In this document: one piece after another, positions 14,113 to 33,027 of the stretch | Position numbering within the stretch: the stretch's first letter is position 1 | Layout of the letters: the number at the start of each line of letters is the position of its first letter | Assembly: GCA_016234735.1 (NCBI GenBank) | Contig: JACRAN010000203.1 | Span: forward strand, 1-33,387 | DNA from: Bacteroidota bacterium | GTDB lineage: Bacteria; Bacteroidota; Bacteroidia; Chitinophagales; Saprospiraceae | Direction: 5' to 3' | Length of the DNA stretch: 33,387 nt | The notes under the pieces: generated by a model | The model's database searches: none | What the model saw: only the letters and a program-made list of their open reading frames with translations | Told to the model about the DNA's origin: nothing | Translations under genes and position numbers: made by a program

Positions 14113-16155
14113 ATGAAACTGCCTGAACTACCCACTGTTTTCAAACAAAAACACCCTGCCGACCAAAAAGAGGCCGACGGGGATGGCAGTTCTTTTTCAA
14201 AAAAAACCGAACAGGCGCTTTCAAAAACTGTCGGCATCAAGGCAAAACTTCGTCCCCTCTCCCGCCTGCTAAGAGAAACAGCCCGCAAAAATATCAAAGC
14301 CATCTCCAACCTGACGCTCGCCGGTGTTGGCGAAAGCCTGCAATCCCTGCGCCTGAAGACCAAAATCCGCATGGTGCTGCTCATTCTTTTTGCGGTGGTC
14401 ACGCTGTTGGGCATCATGGGCGGCTACTACGTGCAACGCACTTCGACCAACGCCCTGCTGATGATGCAGGAAAACTACAACGCCATCAACTATACGAAGG
14501 GCATGTCGCAGGCAGTGAACGACATGGTGTGGGCCATTGCCCTCGAAAACTCGTCGCCCTCCTACCGGCGGCAACAACTTCGGAAAGCATCCGACAGCTT
14601 CGAGCGCTCACTGAACATGCAACTGAAAAAGGTGACGGCCCCCGAAGAGCAGGAACTGACCGACCGGCTCAAGCGGGATTACGAAGCCTTCAATGCCCAG
14701 TTGCAACAGATGGAATTTACGAAGGAAGTGCCGGTGAACTTGTACATGCAGCAACTCAACATCCAGGTGATGCTGCAATCCGTGCATGATTTGAACGATA
14801 AAATGATAAAACAGCGCACGGCGGAAGCCTCGGCCATGGCCAACAAAGTGACGATGTACATGATTATTTTGGGCATGTTGTTTTTCATTTTCGCCGTGTT
14901 TGCCCTGTACTATTTCCCCAACTACGTGGCCGACCCCATCCAGTCGATGACGGAGAGCATCCGGCAGATTGCACGAAAAAATTACAGCGAGCGCATTGCC
15001 ATTGAATCAAGTGACGAAATCGGGGAAATGGCAAAGTCGTTCAACCTGATGGCCGAAAAATTGGAGGAGTACGAAAACATCAACATGACGCAGGTTTTGA
15101 GCGAAAAAAAACGCACCGAAACCATCGTCAGCCGCATGAACGAAGCCATCATCGGGTTGGACGACCAGATGAACATCCTGTTCGCCAACCCCCCTGCCCT
15201 CGAATTGACGGGCTTGCAGGAAGAAGACTTCATCGGACAAAACGCCACGAGGTTTGCCAAAGGGCACCAATTGCTGCAAAACCTGTTGAAAGAAGTGCTG
15301 AACGGTGAGGTGACGGAGAGTAAAACCTTCGCTGCCATCAGCGTGGACAAGGACGGCCAGCGGCTGTATTTCAACAAAGACGTGCTTCGGGTGGAAAGCC
15401 CCGGCGACGATGCCGATGCTCCCATGAGCGTCGGGTTCATCATCATTTTGAAAAACGTGACGGAGTTGAAAGAGCAGGATTTGGCAAAAACCAACTTCAT
15501 GGCCACCCTCTCGCACGAGTTGAAGACCCCCATCGCTGCTATCGACATGAGCGTGAACCTGCTCGAAGACGAGCGCATCGGCCAAATGAACGAGGAACAG
15601 TGGGACCTCACCGGCACCATCCGCCTGAACATTTCCAGGATATTGAAAATGGTGAACGAAATCCTCGACATCTCCCGCATCGAAACCGGCAACCTGCAAT
15701 TAGAACTGGAAAGTGCCACACCTGATGCCATCGTCGTCAGGGCATTGGAAAACGTGAAAACTTTCATTGCCGAAAAGGAGGTCAGCGTCATCCAACACAT
15801 CGAGCCGGAGCTGCCGCTGCTGCACCTGGATTTGCACAAAACGACAGCCGTGCTGGTCAACTTCCTGACCAATGCCGTGCGCTACACGCCTGAAAATCAG
15901 GCAATTGAAATCAACGTTACCCGCCAGAACGGCTCCGTGCAATTTTCGGTAAAAGACAGTGGGCCGGGCATCACGGAGGAAGACCAGCACAAACTTTTCC
16001 AGCCCTACCGCCGCGCCGCCGGTGACAAAACGAAGGGCACGGGCCTCGGTTTGGCCATTTCAAAAGAATTTGTGGAGGCTCAGGGCGGGCAGATTTGGGT
16101 GGAAAGCAAACTTGGCGAAGGCAGCACCTTCAGTTTTGCGCTGCCCGTTGGCTGA
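14113..16155 (+). CDS. Membrane sensor histidine kinase (HAMP-PAS-HisKA-HATPase)
   Basis: This 680-residue two-component sensor starts at the ATG at 14113; a TTG at 14071 would add 14 unlikely residues. After a basic N-terminus (~1-85) come TM1 (~86-106), a helical periplasmic sensor (~107-246), TM2 (~247-268), HAMP (~269-321, ADPIQSMTESIRQIARKNYSERI) and PAS (~331-451). HisKA follows, with phospho-acceptor His at ~468 in ATLSHELKTPIAA. The HATPase_c domain has the N box (NFLTNAVRYTP), G1 (DSGPGI) and G2 (GTGLGLAI). Architecture is KinB-like. No response regulator is adjacent, so it is an orphan kinase. The stop codon lies only 2 nt from the stop of the convergent membrane-protein gene, leaving no room for a terminator between them. 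Confidence 0.93.
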   Translation: MKLPELPTVFKQKHPADQKEADGDGSSFSKKTEQALSKTVGIKAKLRPLSRLLRETARKNIKAISNLTLAGVGESLQSLRLKTKIRMVLLILFAVVTLLGIMGGYYVQRTSTNALLMMQENYNAINYTKGMSQAVNDMVWAIALENSSPSYRRQQLRKASDSFERSLNMQLKKVTAPEEQELTDRLKRDYEAFNAQLQQMEFTKEVPVNLYMQQLNIQVMLQSVHDLNDKMIKQRTAEASAMANKVTMYMIILGMLFFIFAVFALYYFPNYVADPIQSMTESIRQIARKNYSERIAIESSDEIGEMAKSFNLMAEKLEEYENINMTQVLSEKKRTETIVSRMNEAIIGLDDQMNILFANPPALELTGLQEEDFIGQNATRFAKGHQLLQNLLKEVLNGEVTESKTFAAISVDKDGQRLYFNKDVLRVESPGDDADAPMSVGFIIILKNVTELKEQDLAKTNFMATLSHELKTPIAAIDMSVNLLEDERIGQMNEEQWDLTGTIRLNISRILKMVNEILDISRIETGNLQLELESATPDAIVVRALENVKTFIAEKEVSVIQHIEPELPLLHLDLHKTTAVLVNFLTNAVRYTPENQAIEINVTRQNGSVQFSVKDSGPGITEEDQHKLFQPYRRAAGDKTKGTGLGLAISKEFVEAQGGQIWVESKLGEGSTFSFALPVG

Positions 16156-16157
16156 TT

Positions 16158-16568
16158 TCACGAAATATCCACGTTGATGCCGCCAAGTATCAGCCACAGC
16201 AGCAAGCCAATGAAGGCGATGATGATGCCCAACACCAGAAAAACGATGCCTACCGCCGGTATCACCAGCCCCAACAAAATGAACAAGCCGCCCAGCAGCA
16301 GCACAATCAACCCCGCCAAACCGAGGTTGACCCTTCCACCGGGCTTCGTGGCCCGCATCTTTTTTTCCAGCTTTTTTTGAAGTTTTTTCTGCAGCCAGTT
16401 GGTGCGTTTTCCTTTTTTGAAATGGCTGGAGTGCAGCGATTCGGTCGCTGTTTTGTGCGTGGCAGCAACAGCCGCTGCGGGCTGGTCAGGTTTTGAAACC
16501 GCAAAAAGCGAGGGGGAGGCAGTCAGGAAAAATGCCGTCAGCGCCAGCAGGAGTAGGTTGTTTTTCAT
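16158..16568 (-). CDS. Small exported membrane protein with a hydrophobic C-terminus
   Basis: This 136-residue protein starts at the ATG at 16568, chosen for the signal peptide MKNNLLLLALTAFFLTASPS..FA; an in-frame ATG at 16643 adds 25 residues before it. Next come an Ala/Thr/His-rich spacer and a strongly basic block (~50-75, KKGKRTNWLQKKLQKKLEKK). Two very hydrophobic segments follow at ~83-105 and ~107-130 (GLIVLLLGGLFILLGLV, VFLVLGIIIAFIGLLLWLIL). It resembles the small signal-peptide plus basic plus YqaE-like hydrophobic tail proteins common in Bacteroidota, whose function is not known. Convergent with the histidine kinase. Confidence 0.75.
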   Translation of the reverse strand: MKNNLLLLALTAFFLTASPSLFAVSKPDQPAAAVAATHKTATESLHSSHFKKGKRTNWLQKKLQKKLEKKMRATKPGGRVNLGLAGLIVLLLGGLFILLGLVIPAVGIVFLVLGIIIAFIGLLLWLILGGINVDIS

Positions 16569-28013: not shown

Positions 28014-30599
28014 ATGGACATTCGCAAATTCAAAAATCAACTTGCCTTAAGCCTTGTTTTCTGCTTGCTGACCACTGTTTCGTTTGCCCAAAAAATGACG
28101 ATTGTCAAGGGCATGGTCATCGATGCAACCACCAACGAACCGCTGCCGTTGGTGACCATCGCTTTCAAAGGCACCAGCATTGGCACGACCTCGGACTTTG
28201 ACGGGACGTTCGTGCTCGAATCGAAATGGGCATCGGGCATCATCGAAATTGCTTCGCTCGGCTACGAAACGCAGACCCTGCCCATTCAACTCGGTATGAA
28301 ACAGGAGGTGAACGTGTCACTGGTTTCAACTTCTCTGGTGATAGCGACGGTGGAAGTTAAGGCCAAAAAAGGCAAGTACAAACGCCGCGACAACCCTGCC
28401 GTGGAATTGATGCGCAATGTCATTGACCATAAAAAAGACAACCGGATTGAGGCGGTGGATTTTTACGAGGTTGGCAAGTATGAAAAAATAGAATTCGACA
28501 TCAACAACTTCGACCCGGAAAAACTGAAAAAAAGGCGGGCGTTCAAGAAGTTTCAGTTCATGTTCGATTATTTGGACACTTCAGAAATGAACGGGAAACC
28601 GTTCCTGCCATTTTTCATTCAGGAGTCTTCTTCGAAAGTGTACTACCGCAACAGTCCCGAGAGCATGAAAGAACACCGGGAGGGGGTGAAAGTGACGGGA
28701 ATGGAGGAATATGTGGACTCGAAGGACTTGACTACGATGACGGAGGTATTGTATCAAAAAATCAATATCTATGACGATAACATTCGGATGCTCGACCTCG
28801 CTTTTATGAGTCCGCTCAGTCCGTTGGCTATTGGCTACTATCGCTTCTACATCATCGACTCAACGGCGGTAGTGAATGGCTACCCGGTAACGAAGGTGTC
28901 GTTTTACCCCGTCAACAACCAAAACATTGCTTTCAAGGGCGACCTTTTCATCCTGCGTGATTCGTCGTATGCGGTGGTGAAGGCCGATTTTGGGTTGACA
29001 AGGCAAGTGAACGTCAACTTTGTGCAGGACCTTCGGCTGGTGCAGGAATTCAAAAAAATGGACGGCGGCGTTTGGGCGAAAGACAGGGACAAAGTGGTGG
29101 TTGATTTTGCCATCAGAAAAAAGGATACCGGCTTCTACGGCACCAGGGATGTTTTCTACAAAGACTACGTACTGCACGTCAAACGTGACGACGAAACATA
29201 CGTCGGCACCGAAAAAATCATCGATGCAAGCAACGCCTACAAAAGGAGCGAAGAATTCTGGCAAACTGCCCGGCATGATACCCTTTCCAGCAAGGAGCGT
29301 GGCGCTTACGAAATGATCGATACGCTGCAACGGGTGCCGGCATTCCGCACGACGATGACCGTCCTTGCGCTCCTTGCTACCGGCTACAAGGCATTTGGAC
29401 CGGTGGATGTGGGGCCGATTGCCAATTTTTACAGCTTCAATCCGGTGGAGGGTTTCAGGATGAAATTAGGAGGCGAAACGAACCTGAAGTTCCATCCCAA
29501 ATTGTCGCTTTCAGGCTACGGTGCCTACGGCTTCGATGACCGGGCGTGGAAGTATGGCGGCGGTGTCCTTTATTCTTTCCGCGACGATTTTAAAATGAAC
29601 CCCAAGCATTACGTCAGATTGGCTTACCAACACGATGTGAGCCTGGTGGGGCAAATCCTGTACTTCAACAGCCCCGACAACTTTTTCCTTTCCTTTCAGC
29701 GGGGCTCCAGGGACCGTATGCTGTTTTTGGACAGGATGCAGGCAGAGTACATGCTGGAACTCCGTAACCATCTTTCCTGGCTACTCTCATTAAACAACAC
29801 AACCTACCAGCCATACGGTGCTACGTTACTCAACTACTATGACCCCGAAACAGAAGAACCACAATCGCTGAGTGAGTTCAGCACCAGCGAAATCGGATTG
29901 CAAATCCGATTCGCCCCCAACGAGCAGTATCTCCAGGGACGCACTTACCGGACATCTTTTTTCAACAAGTACCCGATTTTTACGCTGAGGCTTGCAACCG
30001 GGCTGAAAGATGTACTGGGCGGTGACTACAGCTACAACAGCGCCTCCCTCAATGTAACCAAGCGTTTCTACATGTCGTTTATCGGAACAATGCGCATGGA
30101 TTTTGAAGCCGGGAAATACTGGGGGGAAGGCTTGCCGTACTTCCTGCTGAACTTGCCGAGGGCCAACCAGACCTACGCTTACCGCACCCTTTCCTTCAAC
30201 ATGATGAACTATCAGGAATTCGTCAGCGACGAGTATGCCTGGCTCATGCTGGAACACAATTTCAATGGCTTCATTTTCAATAAAATACCACTGATCAGAA
30301 AGTTGAAACTGCGGGAAGCCGTCACCTTCAAGGCCATTTACGGTCGGCTCACCGATAACAACAACCCCGAAAAGAACCCGTCGTACATTCAGTTTCTGGA
30401 AAACGATGAAGGTCAGCGCGTCACTTACACCCTGGAAGACAAACCCTACGTGGAGGCGGGTGTAGCGGTAAGCAACATTTTTAAAGTAATTCGACTGGAC
30501 CTGGTTCGTCGCTTAACTTACCTCGACAATCCGGAAGTTCCTTCCATGTTTGGCGTGAAGGGCTTGGGGCTGAGAGCCAGATTAAGGATTGAATTTTGA
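28014..30599 (+). CDS. DUF5686/carboxypeptidase-regulatory-domain outer-membrane protein
   Basis: This 861-residue envelope protein carries a signal peptide (MDIRKFKNQLALSLVFCLLTTVSFAQ). The carboxypeptidase-regulatory-like beta-sandwich is at ~27-115 (KGMVIDATTNEPLPLVTIAFKGTSIGTTSDFDGTFVLE, a SusC-type pattern). The rest is DUF5686: AVELMRNVIDHKKDNRIEAVDFYEVGKYEKIEFDINNF and a long aromatic-rich, beta-strand pattern running to an Arg-Ile-Glu-Phe C-terminus, typical of outer-membrane barrels. The family is widespread and specific to Bacteroidota; its function is not established. Transcribed alone, with the lipid operon starting ~145 nt further on. Confidence 0.92.
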   Translation: MDIRKFKNQLALSLVFCLLTTVSFAQKMTIVKGMVIDATTNEPLPLVTIAFKGTSIGTTSDFDGTFVLESKWASGIIEIASLGYETQTLPIQLGMKQEVNVSLVSTSLVIATVEVKAKKGKYKRRDNPAVELMRNVIDHKKDNRIEAVDFYEVGKYEKIEFDINNFDPEKLKKRRAFKKFQFMFDYLDTSEMNGKPFLPFFIQESSSKVYYRNSPESMKEHREGVKVTGMEEYVDSKDLTTMTEVLYQKINIYDDNIRMLDLAFMSPLSPLAIGYYRFYIIDSTAVVNGYPVTKVSFYPVNNQNIAFKGDLFILRDSSYAVVKADFGLTRQVNVNFVQDLRLVQEFKKMDGGVWAKDRDKVVVDFAIRKKDTGFYGTRDVFYKDYVLHVKRDDETYVGTEKIIDASNAYKRSEEFWQTARHDTLSSKERGAYEMIDTLQRVPAFRTTMTVLALLATGYKAFGPVDVGPIANFYSFNPVEGFRMKLGGETNLKFHPKLSLSGYGAYGFDDRAWKYGGGVLYSFRDDFKMNPKHYVRLAYQHDVSLVGQILYFNSPDNFFLSFQRGSRDRMLFLDRMQAEYMLELRNHLSWLLSLNNTTYQPYGATLLNYYDPETEEPQSLSEFSTSEIGLQIRFAPNEQYLQGRTYRTSFFNKYPIFTLRLATGLKDVLGGDYSYNSASLNVTKRFYMSFIGTMRMDFEAGKYWGEGLPYFLLNLPRANQTYAYRTLSFNMMNYQEFVSDEYAWLMLEHNFNGFIFNKIPLIRKLKLREAVTFKAIYGRLTDNNNPEKNPSYIQFLENDEGQRVTYTLEDKPYVEAGVAVSNIFKVIRLDLVRRLTYLDNPEVPSMFGVKGLGLRARLRIEF

Positions 30600-30744: not shown

Positions 30745-31455
30745 ATGAGCGAAAACCTGCTTAAAAAATACGGGCAACCCTTGGTTTACAAGGTTATCAA
30801 CCCACTGATTGACCTGTTGGTGAAGTGGAAGGTCAGGCCCAACACCATTACGACTATCGGCCTGGTTATCAACACTTTCGCCACCGTGATTTTCATTTAC
30901 GGCGGGAAATATGGCGAGCGGAGCGACCACTCGTACATCGGTTGGGCGGGCGTGGTGATTTTGTTTGCAGGCTTGTTCGACATGATTGACGGACGGCTGG
31001 CGAGGGTTGGCAAAATGGCCTCCTCCTTCGGGGCGCTTTACGACTCGGTGCTCGACCGGTACAGCGAAATGATCATGTTCCTCGGCATTTGCTGGTACCT
31101 GGTGGCGCAGAGTTACTTCCTGAGTTCCCTGTTTGCCTTCATCGCCCTGATTGGCTCCATGATGGTCAGCTACATCCGGGCCAGGGCGGAGAGCCTGGGG
31201 GCACACGCCGATGTGGGCCTGATGCAGCGGCCCGAACGCATCATCATCATCGGTGTCTCGGCGATTGCCTGCGGCGTTTACTCGGCGGGCGGCGGCAGCG
31301 AGGTAAAAATCACCGTGGACTGGCTGCCGATTCCACTGTTTGAAACCATCACGATTTTCACGTTTCCCATCATGGTGTTGGCAGTTCTTACGAATATTAC
31401 GGCCATCACACGGTTGATTTACAGCAAAAAAGAATTGGAAGAAAACGAAAAATAA
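30745..31455 (+). CDS. CDP-alcohol phosphatidyltransferase
   Basis: This 236-residue inner-membrane enzyme transfers a phosphatidyl or related group from a CDP-activated lipid to an alcohol acceptor. The full signature DxxDGxxARx8GxxxDxxxD is present: D79, D82-G83, A86-R87, G96, D100, D104 in FDMIDGRLARVGKMASSFGALYDSVLDRYSEM. Five or six hydrophobic helices follow (e.g. IMFLGICWYLV, FAFIALIGSMMVSYI). Start is the ATG at 30745 (MSENLLKKYG); upstream frame extensions look non-coding. The acceptor (glycerol-phosphate, serine or inositol-phosphate) cannot be read; the RARAESLG segment is also seen in phosphatidylinositol-phosphate-synthase-like members. First gene of an apparent four-gene operon. 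Confidence 0.92.
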   Translation: MSENLLKKYGQPLVYKVINPLIDLLVKWKVRPNTITTIGLVINTFATVIFIYGGKYGERSDHSYIGWAGVVILFAGLFDMIDGRLARVGKMASSFGALYDSVLDRYSEMIMFLGICWYLVAQSYFLSSLFAFIALIGSMMVSYIRARAESLGAHADVGLMQRPERIIIIGVSAIACGVYSAGGGSEVKITVDWLPIPLFETITIFTFPIMVLAVLTNITAITRLIYSKKELEENEK

Positions 31456-31505: not shown

Positions 31506-32075
31506 ATGAGCCGAATCGTATCCATTATCTTTTTTTCCGGCATCCTGGCCTTGCCGTTGTCGGCGCAAAGCAATACCAAAGCGGAACCGTCGGCACTTCT
31601 CAGCCGCCCCGCCGACTTTCCGACACCCCCCAAGACGAACAAGTCCCTGTTTTTTATTCAAAGGAATAAAAACAAAAACACCATCGTGTACGATGCCAAT
31701 TTAAAGGCAGGCAAATTTGACAGTTCCAAACCCATCGATGCCTACTGGCAACGTTACGCCAGCACAGGTCTCCGGGGTGAACTCACCTGGACCCAAAAGA
31801 CTTTCGCATACGGGTACAGCAGCAAAAAAGATGCTGTCGGCAATGGCTACTACATCACGCTGACGGCCTACGATAAAAGAAAAATCCATTTACAACTCGA
31901 TTCGAAAGGACAGCCGTTCGCCACCATGTTAATCAACGGGAAAAACTGCCGGTTGAATTATATTTGGGTCTTCGCTGACAACAGCAGCAAGTGGCCCGAT
32001 GTCATTCACGTGGACCTGCACGGTACAGAGCTTGGCACCAGCAAAAAACAAACCGAGCGAATTCAAAACAATTAA
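31506..32075 (+). CDS. Exported DUF4833 protein
   Basis: This 189-residue protein has a signal peptide (MSRIVSIIFFSGILALPLSAQ) and one globular domain from ~40: PKTNKSLFFIQRNKNKNTIVYDAN, then PIDAYWQRYASTGLRGELTWTQKTFAYGYSS. These are the hallmarks of DUF4833. The domain is largely beta-strand. No enzymatic motif is recognised. It lies 50 nt downstream of the phosphatidyltransferase and 10 nt upstream of the desaturase, so a lipid-linked periplasmic role is inferred from context only. Confidence 0.85.
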   Translation: MSRIVSIIFFSGILALPLSAQSNTKAEPSALLSRPADFPTPPKTNKSLFFIQRNKNKNTIVYDANLKAGKFDSSKPIDAYWQRYASTGLRGELTWTQKTFAYGYSSKKDAVGNGYYITLTAYDKRKIHLQLDSKGQPFATMLINGKNCRLNYIWVFADNSSKWPDVIHVDLHGTELGTSKKQTERIQNN

Positions 32076-32085
32076 CTTAACAACG

Positions 32086-33027
32086 ATGGGACAATCCAAT
32101 TTTTACTTCTCCAACGCCGCCCAGCCTCACACCGAACGCAGCGTTGAAATGCTGAAAAAATATCCGCAAATCACAAAACTCATCGGGCGTAACCCTTGGA
32201 CATTCCTGATACTGACCGGGGTGGTAGCGCTCCAGATGACGTTGGCCATTGCCTTCGGCCAGCTTGGCAGCGAGTATTGGTGGCTCATGCTGCTGACGGC
32301 CTACTGCGTGGGGGCATTCGCTGCACAGGCACATTACAGCATCATCCACGAGGCCACGCATAACATGATTTTCAAGAACAGGATTCTGAATAAGTTTTGC
32401 ATCCTCATGGCCGACCTTTCCAATACGGTGCCGGGTGCCATCGGGTTCTCCATCTTCCACCTGAAGCACCACGCCTACATGGGCGACGATACGCTGGATG
32501 CCGACCTGCCCACTGTTTGGGAAGCCAGGATGGTAGGCAACTCGCCCGTGCGGAAGGCCATCTGGCTGGCACTTTTCCCGTTTTTCCAGATTTACCGGGC
32601 TTTGAAGCTGACCAAAATCAACGTCTGGAGCGGATGGATGGTGCTGAACCTTGTGCTGGTGTTTTCCGTGAACGCTACCCTGGTGTACTTTTTCGGCTGG
32701 ATGTCGGTGCTGTACCTGTTCAGTTCCATGATGTTTGCATTGGGCTTCCACCCGGTAGGGGCACGGTGGGTGCAGGAGCACTACACCCTCGACGAAGCAC
32801 AGGAAACTTTCAGCTACTACGGTCCCATCAACAAAGTCACCCTCAACATCGGCTACCACGTCGAACACCACGATTTTCCTTCCGTCCCCTGGAACAAGCT
32901 GCCGGTGCTTCGCAAAATTGCGCCTGAATACTACAACACACTGGGCTACCACCCCTCCTGGGCGAAGCTGATGTACCAGTTCATCACGGACGGGGAATAC
33001 TCGCTCTACCGCCGTGTGAAGCGCTAA
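32086..33027 (+). CDS. DES1-like fatty-acyl/sphingolipid delta-4 desaturase
   Basis: This 313-residue membrane desaturase starts at the ATG at 32086 (MGQSNFYFSNAAQPHTERSV). It matches the eukaryotic sphingolipid delta-4 desaturase (DEGS1) pattern along its length: QPHTERSVEMLKKYPQI near the N-terminus, and three His boxes H88EATH92, H125LKHH129 and H258VEHH262. The distinctive GFHPVGARWVQEHY, ETFSYYGPINKVTLNIGYHVEHHDFP and LRKIAPEYYNTL..SWAKLMYQF segments are also in the same order as in DEGS1. Several hydrophobic helices lie between boxes. The expected chemistry is O2-dependent insertion of the 4,5 double bond into dihydroceramide, needing a diiron site and reduced electron carrier. Bacterial substrate could instead be another sphingoid or acyl lipid. 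Clustered with lipid genes, which supports this. Confidence 0.88.
   Translation: MGQSNFYFSNAAQPHTERSVEMLKKYPQITKLIGRNPWTFLILTGVVALQMTLAIAFGQLGSEYWWLMLLTAYCVGAFAAQAHYSIIHEATHNMIFKNRILNKFCILMADLSNTVPGAIGFSIFHLKHHAYMGDDTLDADLPTVWEARMVGNSPVRKAIWLALFPFFQIYRALKLTKINVWSGWMVLNLVLVFSVNATLVYFFGWMSVLYLFSSMMFALGFHPVGARWVQEHYTLDEAQETFSYYGPINKVTLNIGYHVEHHDFPSVPWNKLPVLRKIAPEYYNTLGYHPSWAKLMYQFITDGEYSLYRRVKR

Follow-up and report, generated by a model that had tools for sequence, protein, structure and literature searches.

Desaturation of dihydroceramide between C4 and C5 is the established chemistry of the DEGS family, and in animals the resulting 4,5 double bond distinguishes ceramide from dihydroceramide and alters signaling and membrane behavior. 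DEGS2, of the same family, produces phytoceramides (PMC11765627). Bacterial sphingolipids have been described as dihydroceramide-based (e.g., PMC9246714), and the inositol sphingolipid of Bacteroides thetaiotaomicron as a phosphoinositol dihydroceramide; knockouts of BT_1522, BT_1523, BT_1525 and BT_1526 showed that all four genes are needed for the inositol lipids of this species, BT_1522 for the sphingolipid form only (Heaver 2022, PMC9246714). In the ceramide pathway of Caulobacter (spt, cerS, cerR and CC_0202), the DesA-family protein CC_0202 is reported to be the ceramide acyl hydroxylase (PMC11324152). Here we analyze a desaturase gene from the genome of a Saprospiraceae bacterium (4.88 Mb, 99% complete). 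The gene lies on the window, a stretch of 33,387 nucleotides that makes up the entire contig C121. We propose, with slightly better than even confidence, that it encodes a bacterial DES-family enzyme placing a trans double bond at C4–C5 of dihydroceramide, or of the inositol-phosphate version of this lipid. A ceramide-type substrate is quite probable, and 4E regiochemistry is mildly favored.

The predicted protein of 313 residues matches both Pfam models that define the DES family here, PF08557 (Lipid_DES, the N-terminal model of sphingolipid delta-4 desaturases; hmmscan, 2.4e-12, 46.5 bits, cut-off 23) and PF00487 (FA_desaturase; 1.1e-26, 94.6 bits, cut-off 29.7). It reaches no NCBIfam equivalog cut-off, and a PDB sequence search returned no credible solved relative. 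The elements named by an earlier, sequence-only reading of this DNA are all present: the open reading frame (ORF), the His boxes HEATH, HLKHH and HVEHH, HPVGARWVQEHY, SYYGPINKVTLNIGYH (residues 243–258), HHDFP (residues 261–265) and the DEGS1-like N-terminus. The box histidines, together with H222, H232 and N254, are invariant across 59 sequences of a bacterial branch B, seven of a bacterial branch A, two human rows and a divergent paralog that the genome carries on contig C92; the invariant histidines would be expected to bind iron. An AlphaFold model built from a 43-sequence alignment (pLDDT 90.7) resembles the alkane monooxygenase AlkB, with a Z of 14.9 across 249 residues that clearly exceeds the values of unrelated rows, and stearoyl-CoA desaturase SCD1 (Z = 6.5); two chains of the chloroplast FtsHi motor complex rank higher than AlkB (Z = 17–19). 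The modeled fold is that of a membrane di-iron desaturase/hydroxylase, as in AlkB and SCD1.

The resemblance to DEGS1 that had been noted from the sequence extends over the whole length of the protein and is far above chance, with 36% identity over 308 columns to a human DEGS1 row. This row and that of DEGS2 serve as a lead, not as database records. Shared with both are the N-terminal Lipid_DES element, all His ligands, and the SYYGP-N and N-G-H-EHHD motifs. The resemblance is not residue for residue, and HPVGARWVQEHY does not hold as a DEGS1 motif: the DEGS1 row has HPISGHFIAEHY, and the R, W and Q of the window protein mark a bacterial branch. In the tree, a bacterial family of more than 60 homologs and the human pair are set apart, with an SH-aLRT of 100, from two acyl desaturases encoded by the window genome, so the desaturase does not group with unrelated acyl-lipid desaturases. 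The family comprises branch A, the human pair, branch B (59 bacterial rows including the window protein, support 98–100) and the C92 paralog, which was not used as an anchor because of its long branch. Branch A sequences (e.g., L006, L007, L010 and L106) show about 46% identity to the DEGS1 row, with which they group; the window protein is not the bacterial form nearest to DEGS1. Residues R227, W228, Q230 and W269 occur in 59/59 branch B rows, and the corresponding residues are H, F, S/A/H and G in branch A, the human pair and the C92 paralog. The window protein carries ARWVQEHY and PWN (ARW-Q-EH and IPW, against GHF-A-EH and IPG in DEGS), rather than the GHF-[A/S]-EHY and IPG signature of the DEGS1/2 rows and branch A. 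This branch B signature argues against the label of DEGS ortholog, not against the family.

Two origins had been suggested for the gene. An ancient bacterial relative of the eukaryotic enzyme fits the tree, which lends no support to a recent eukaryotic source, because the window protein sits inside the 59-row bacterial branch (98–100), away from the human rows. Carriage by viruses or plasmids was rejected: searches of viral contigs, made with two alignments, turned up no relatives, and neither did searches of phages and PLSDB. Every DES-positive genome in the genus of the window organism has either an A-type gene (nine species) or a B-type gene (four species), never both, a pattern consistent with one type having replaced the other, and hence with a similar job, although it is no proof. 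Branch A genes are not beside serine palmitoyltransferase (SPT) genes in the loci seen. The C92 paralog (15322–16410; locus L005, 1270–2358) is a second, very divergent Lipid_DES protein with intact His boxes and unrelated neighbors.

A scan of named genomes revealed at least 571 bacterial relatives of the desaturase. Locus counts refer to the best 80 of these, which come mostly from metagenome-assembled genomes (MAGs), some probably mis-binned, and represent Bacteroidota, Ignavibacteriota, Alphaproteobacteria, Verrucomicrobiota, Kiritimatiellota, Acidobacteriota and others. An SPT-like gene lies within about 8 kb at 13 of the 80 loci, in three phyla (Bacteroidota; Alphaproteobacteria, including Beijerinckia and Methylocapsa; and Spartobacteria), and several of the 13 also have a GNAT gene. 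Roughly 1.4 of the 80 would be expected by chance if the background is taken, as a rough assumption, to be four such genes in every 4 Mb, although the loci cannot count as independent. All SPT-linked loci in the tree (L031, L036, L040, L042, L062, L103 and L105) fall within the 18-row sub-clade of the window protein (SH-aLRT 94–100). The scanned proteobacterial and verrucomicrobial SPT-like genes score below all SPT equivalog cut-offs and are identified by context. In Beijerinckiaceae (L062, L064, L095, L103 and L105) an SPT-like gene, a GNAT gene and the desaturase are consecutive and form a compact cassette, a candidate for ceramide beyond the curated SPT families.

Among 61 relatives of the window genome, 21 carry the desaturase family. 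An SPT or SPT-like gene scoring at least 467 bits is present in 20 of the 21; glycine C-acetyltransferase-like genes reach about 358 bits in this search. The sole family-positive relative without SPT, G032, is 89% complete and yielded no SPT-like gene whatever. SPT-like genes were found in about 5 of 40 family-negative relatives, giving a Fisher p of about 1.6e-10 when genomes are counted and 4e-5 when genera are, values uncorrected for shared ancestry.

The window genome itself encodes an SPT on contig C215 (NF047600, 674 bits against an equivalog cut-off of 640; best PDB matches the serine palmitoyltransferases 8guh and 3a2b, 2.5e-154). Upstream of it is a PAP2 protein whose sole NCBIfam match, over its whole length, is phosphoinositol dihydroceramide synthase (NF052609, 362 bits, below the cut-off of 480), and downstream are a GNAT protein and an NAD-dependent epimerase. 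A myo-inositol-phosphate synthase (MIPS) is on contig C66, and three FA_hydroxylases are found elsewhere. The genome also encodes cysteate-C-fatty acyltransferase (CFAT), the starter enzyme of sulfonolipids (PDB 28eh, 3.4e-182). Since both SPT and CFAT are present, the organism probably produces long-chain bases of both types. Neither of two findings named earlier as refuting, a tree that groups the protein with unrelated acyl-lipid desaturases and a genome lacking sphingolipid genes, was made. The earlier reading is supported, and the organism may, as suggested there, make a delta-4-unsaturated sphingoid base.

Related loci show how these genes can be assembled. In a different Saprospiraceae MAG (L040) the order is DUF5686, phosphatidylinositol-phosphate (PIP) synthase, desaturase, FA_hydroxylase, PAP2, SPT, GNAT, epimerase and MIPS, and most of this set is present in the window genome, spread over C121, C215 and C66. 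Genome G015 has PAP2, SPT, GNAT, epimerase and MIPS directly adjoining the genes for PIP synthase and DUF4833. Loci L068 and L091 carry epimerase, MIPS, PgpA, GtrA, DUF5686, PIP synthase, DUF4833, FA_hydroxylase, desaturase and PAP2. Most of these genes are also on L061, and in all three loci the desaturase sits within an inositol lipid cluster resembling BT_1522–1526. Filed under an Azovibrio (betaproteobacterial) MAG, L061 is nearly identical over the cluster to L068 from Bacteroidota and was probably mis-binned. Viewed with these clusters and the BT_1522–1526 knockouts, the window genome looks like it holds such a gene set broken into pieces. The related loci share with the BT_1522–BT_1526 cluster PIP synthase, a PAP2 protein like phosphoinositol dihydroceramide synthase, PgpA and MIPS, and add the desaturase, FA_hydroxylase and DUF4833/DUF5686; the paper describing that cluster nowhere uses the word desaturase (PMC9246714). 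The Caulobacter pathway is alike in combining SPT, an N-acyltransferase, a dehydrogenase and an oxygenase of the desaturase superfamily.

In the proposed pathway, SPT would make 3-ketosphinganine, which the epimerase (a CerR-like short-chain dehydrogenase/reductase) and GNAT, a candidate ceramide synthase, would turn into dihydroceramide. The di-iron desaturase would then use O2 and two electrons supplied by a donor to dehydrogenate C4–C5 of the N-acyl-sphinganine to give ceramide. MIPS and PIP synthase would supply phosphatidylinositol phosphate, from which the PAP2 protein, as a relative of phosphoinositol dihydroceramide synthase, would move the head group to ceramide, yielding inositol phosphoceramide.

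The Lipid_DES and FA_desaturase matches, the invariant histidines, the fold, the SPT in the genome, the gene clusters, the SPT linkage and the co-occurrence together point to a desaturase of ceramide-type lipids. Several observations weigh against its assignment to C4–C5 of dihydroceramide. The SPT of the window genome is on a different contig from the desaturase, the functions of GNAT and the epimerase are assigned by position and fold family only, and all bacterial members of the family lack a known product. The ARW-Q-EH and IPW motifs beside the His ligands differ from those of DEGS and could reflect another regiochemistry or substrate. Judged by sequence, the product could be a 4E double bond, a C4-hydroxyl or a modified sulfonolipid. 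The open literature, in a search that covered few subscription papers and is thus weak evidence, yielded no report of a bacterial enzyme of this type and nothing relevant on bacterial delta-4 sphingolipid desaturases, PF08557, unsaturated capnines or Mucilaginibacter ceramides.

The enzyme could instead be a C4-hydroxylase or a DEGS2-like bifunctional desaturase/hydroxylase, with a phytoceramide-type (4-hydroxy) inositol sphingolipid as product, which we regard as unlikely. The DES family does include DEGS2, a maker of phytoceramides (PMC11765627), and in both the window protein and the DEGS2 row the residue preceding EHH in box 3 is V, a position occupied by N in most sequences; yet this V occurs in just 3/59 branch B rows. 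By Z score the hydroxylase AlkB is a closer solved fold than SCD1, but fold similarity is no proof of hydroxylation, and several clusters already contain a separate FA_hydroxylase gene.

A capnine-type base of sulfonolipids is a less promising candidate for the substrate, and we consider it improbable for the window protein. Besides the strong CFAT of the window genome, CFAT occurs in 15/15 family-positive Bacteroidia genomes of the phylum sample, six of which have no SPT-like gene, a further point against a ceramide substrate. However, these six belong to a different sub-clade from the window protein, whose own sub-clade is the SPT-linked one, and CFAT adjoins the desaturase at none of the loci seen. 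CFAT also does not follow the desaturase among close relatives: G015, G016, G018, G039, G041, G051 and G060 are DES-positive and have an SPT-like gene without CFAT, and many CFAT-positive, SPT-negative genomes lack the family. The six CFAT-only genomes (L204–L209; G209, G449, G445, G205, G307 and G429) are possible sources of unsaturated sulfonolipids, and in their sub-clade the enzyme may have a role in sulfonolipids.

Modification of the N-acyl chain of ceramide, by 2-hydroxylation or acyl desaturation, is quite improbable. It has a precedent in Caulobacter, where hydroxylation of the acyl chain has been reported for CC_0202 (PMC11324152), but PF08557 finds no match in the Caulobacter control genome, which places CC_0202 outside the DES family, and the separate FA_hydroxylase of several clusters argues against it as well. 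It is very improbable that the likeness to DES is superficial and that the protein is an ordinary desaturase of the acyl-lipid or carotenoid type: PF00487 is a broad family and there is a weak NCBIfam match to beta-carotene hydroxylase (3e-07), but NCBIfam matches are far below their cut-offs while Lipid_DES is above its own, the tree separates the protein at 100 from the acyl desaturases of its own genome, and the context is one of sphingolipid genes.

On the window, in contrast to DEGS1/DEGS2, the desaturase gene lies in a bacterial operon with a probable PIP synthase gene (Table 1), which agrees with the lipid operon described earlier. Downstream from the phosphatidyltransferase gene the gaps are 50 bp to the DUF4833 gene, 10 bp to the desaturase gene and 13 bp to an HD-like gene. 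The phosphatidyltransferase scores 341.6 bits (2.4e-102) against NF052561, the BT1523-type PIP synthase model, just below the cut-off of 350, which its homologs in L040 (354.5) and L061 (408.8) pass. The order DUF5686, PIP synthase, DUF4833, desaturase is kept in a sister species (L026). DUF4833 proteins are found near the desaturase both in Bacteroidota and in alphaproteobacterial SPT-desaturase loci (28–30% identity), and DUF4833 may therefore belong to the sphingolipid pathway. The CarboxypepD_reg/DUF5686 protein is a constant neighbor of PIP synthase, and DUF5686 proteins are also close to the SPT clusters L195, L197, L199, L200 and L203; it is a candidate for a lipid-related role.

Table 1 Features of the desaturase locus on the window.
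Feature	Position	Strand	Remarks
CarboxypepD_reg + DUF5686 protein	28014..30599	+	Same position in loci L026, L040, L061, L068, L091
CDP-alcohol phosphatidyltransferase, probable BT1523-type PIP synthase	30745..31455	+	Start inferred; ORF from 30589
DUF4833 protein	31506..32075	+	Near desaturase also in L026, L061, L068, L091 and in alphaproteobacterial L042, L045, L055
Desaturase ORF	32086..33027	+	313 aa; Lipid_DES + FA_desaturase membrane di-iron oxygenase; predicted sphingoid-base desaturase
His box 1, HEATH (residues 88–92)	32347..32361	+	H88/H92 invariant in 68 DES-family rows
His box 2, HLKHH (residues 125–129)	32458..32472	+	H125/H128/H129 invariant in 68 DES-family rows
HPVGARWVQEHY (residues 222–233)	32749..32784	+	Bacterial B-branch signature; R227, W228, Q230 in 59/59 B rows
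His box 3, HVEHH (residues 258–262)	32857..32871	+	H258/H261/H262 invariant in 68 DES-family rows
HD-domain-like protein start, cut by contig end	33041..33387	+	Weak match, just below cut-off

A broader and more speculative possibility, which we hold to be rather unlikely, is that backbone desaturation is an old bacterial trait, with a multi-phylum branch using dedicated clusters to make unsaturated ceramides and inositol phosphoceramides, and eukaryotic DEGS derived from, or sharing a bacterial ancestor with, branch A. Bacterial DES sequences supply outgroups for tracing how the eukaryotic enzyme arose. Unsaturated sphingolipids may be made by some bacteria, and the genetically linked bacterial DES branch provides both genes and culturable carriers, among them Mucilaginibacter, Taibaiella, Segetibacter, Beijerinckia and Methylocapsa.
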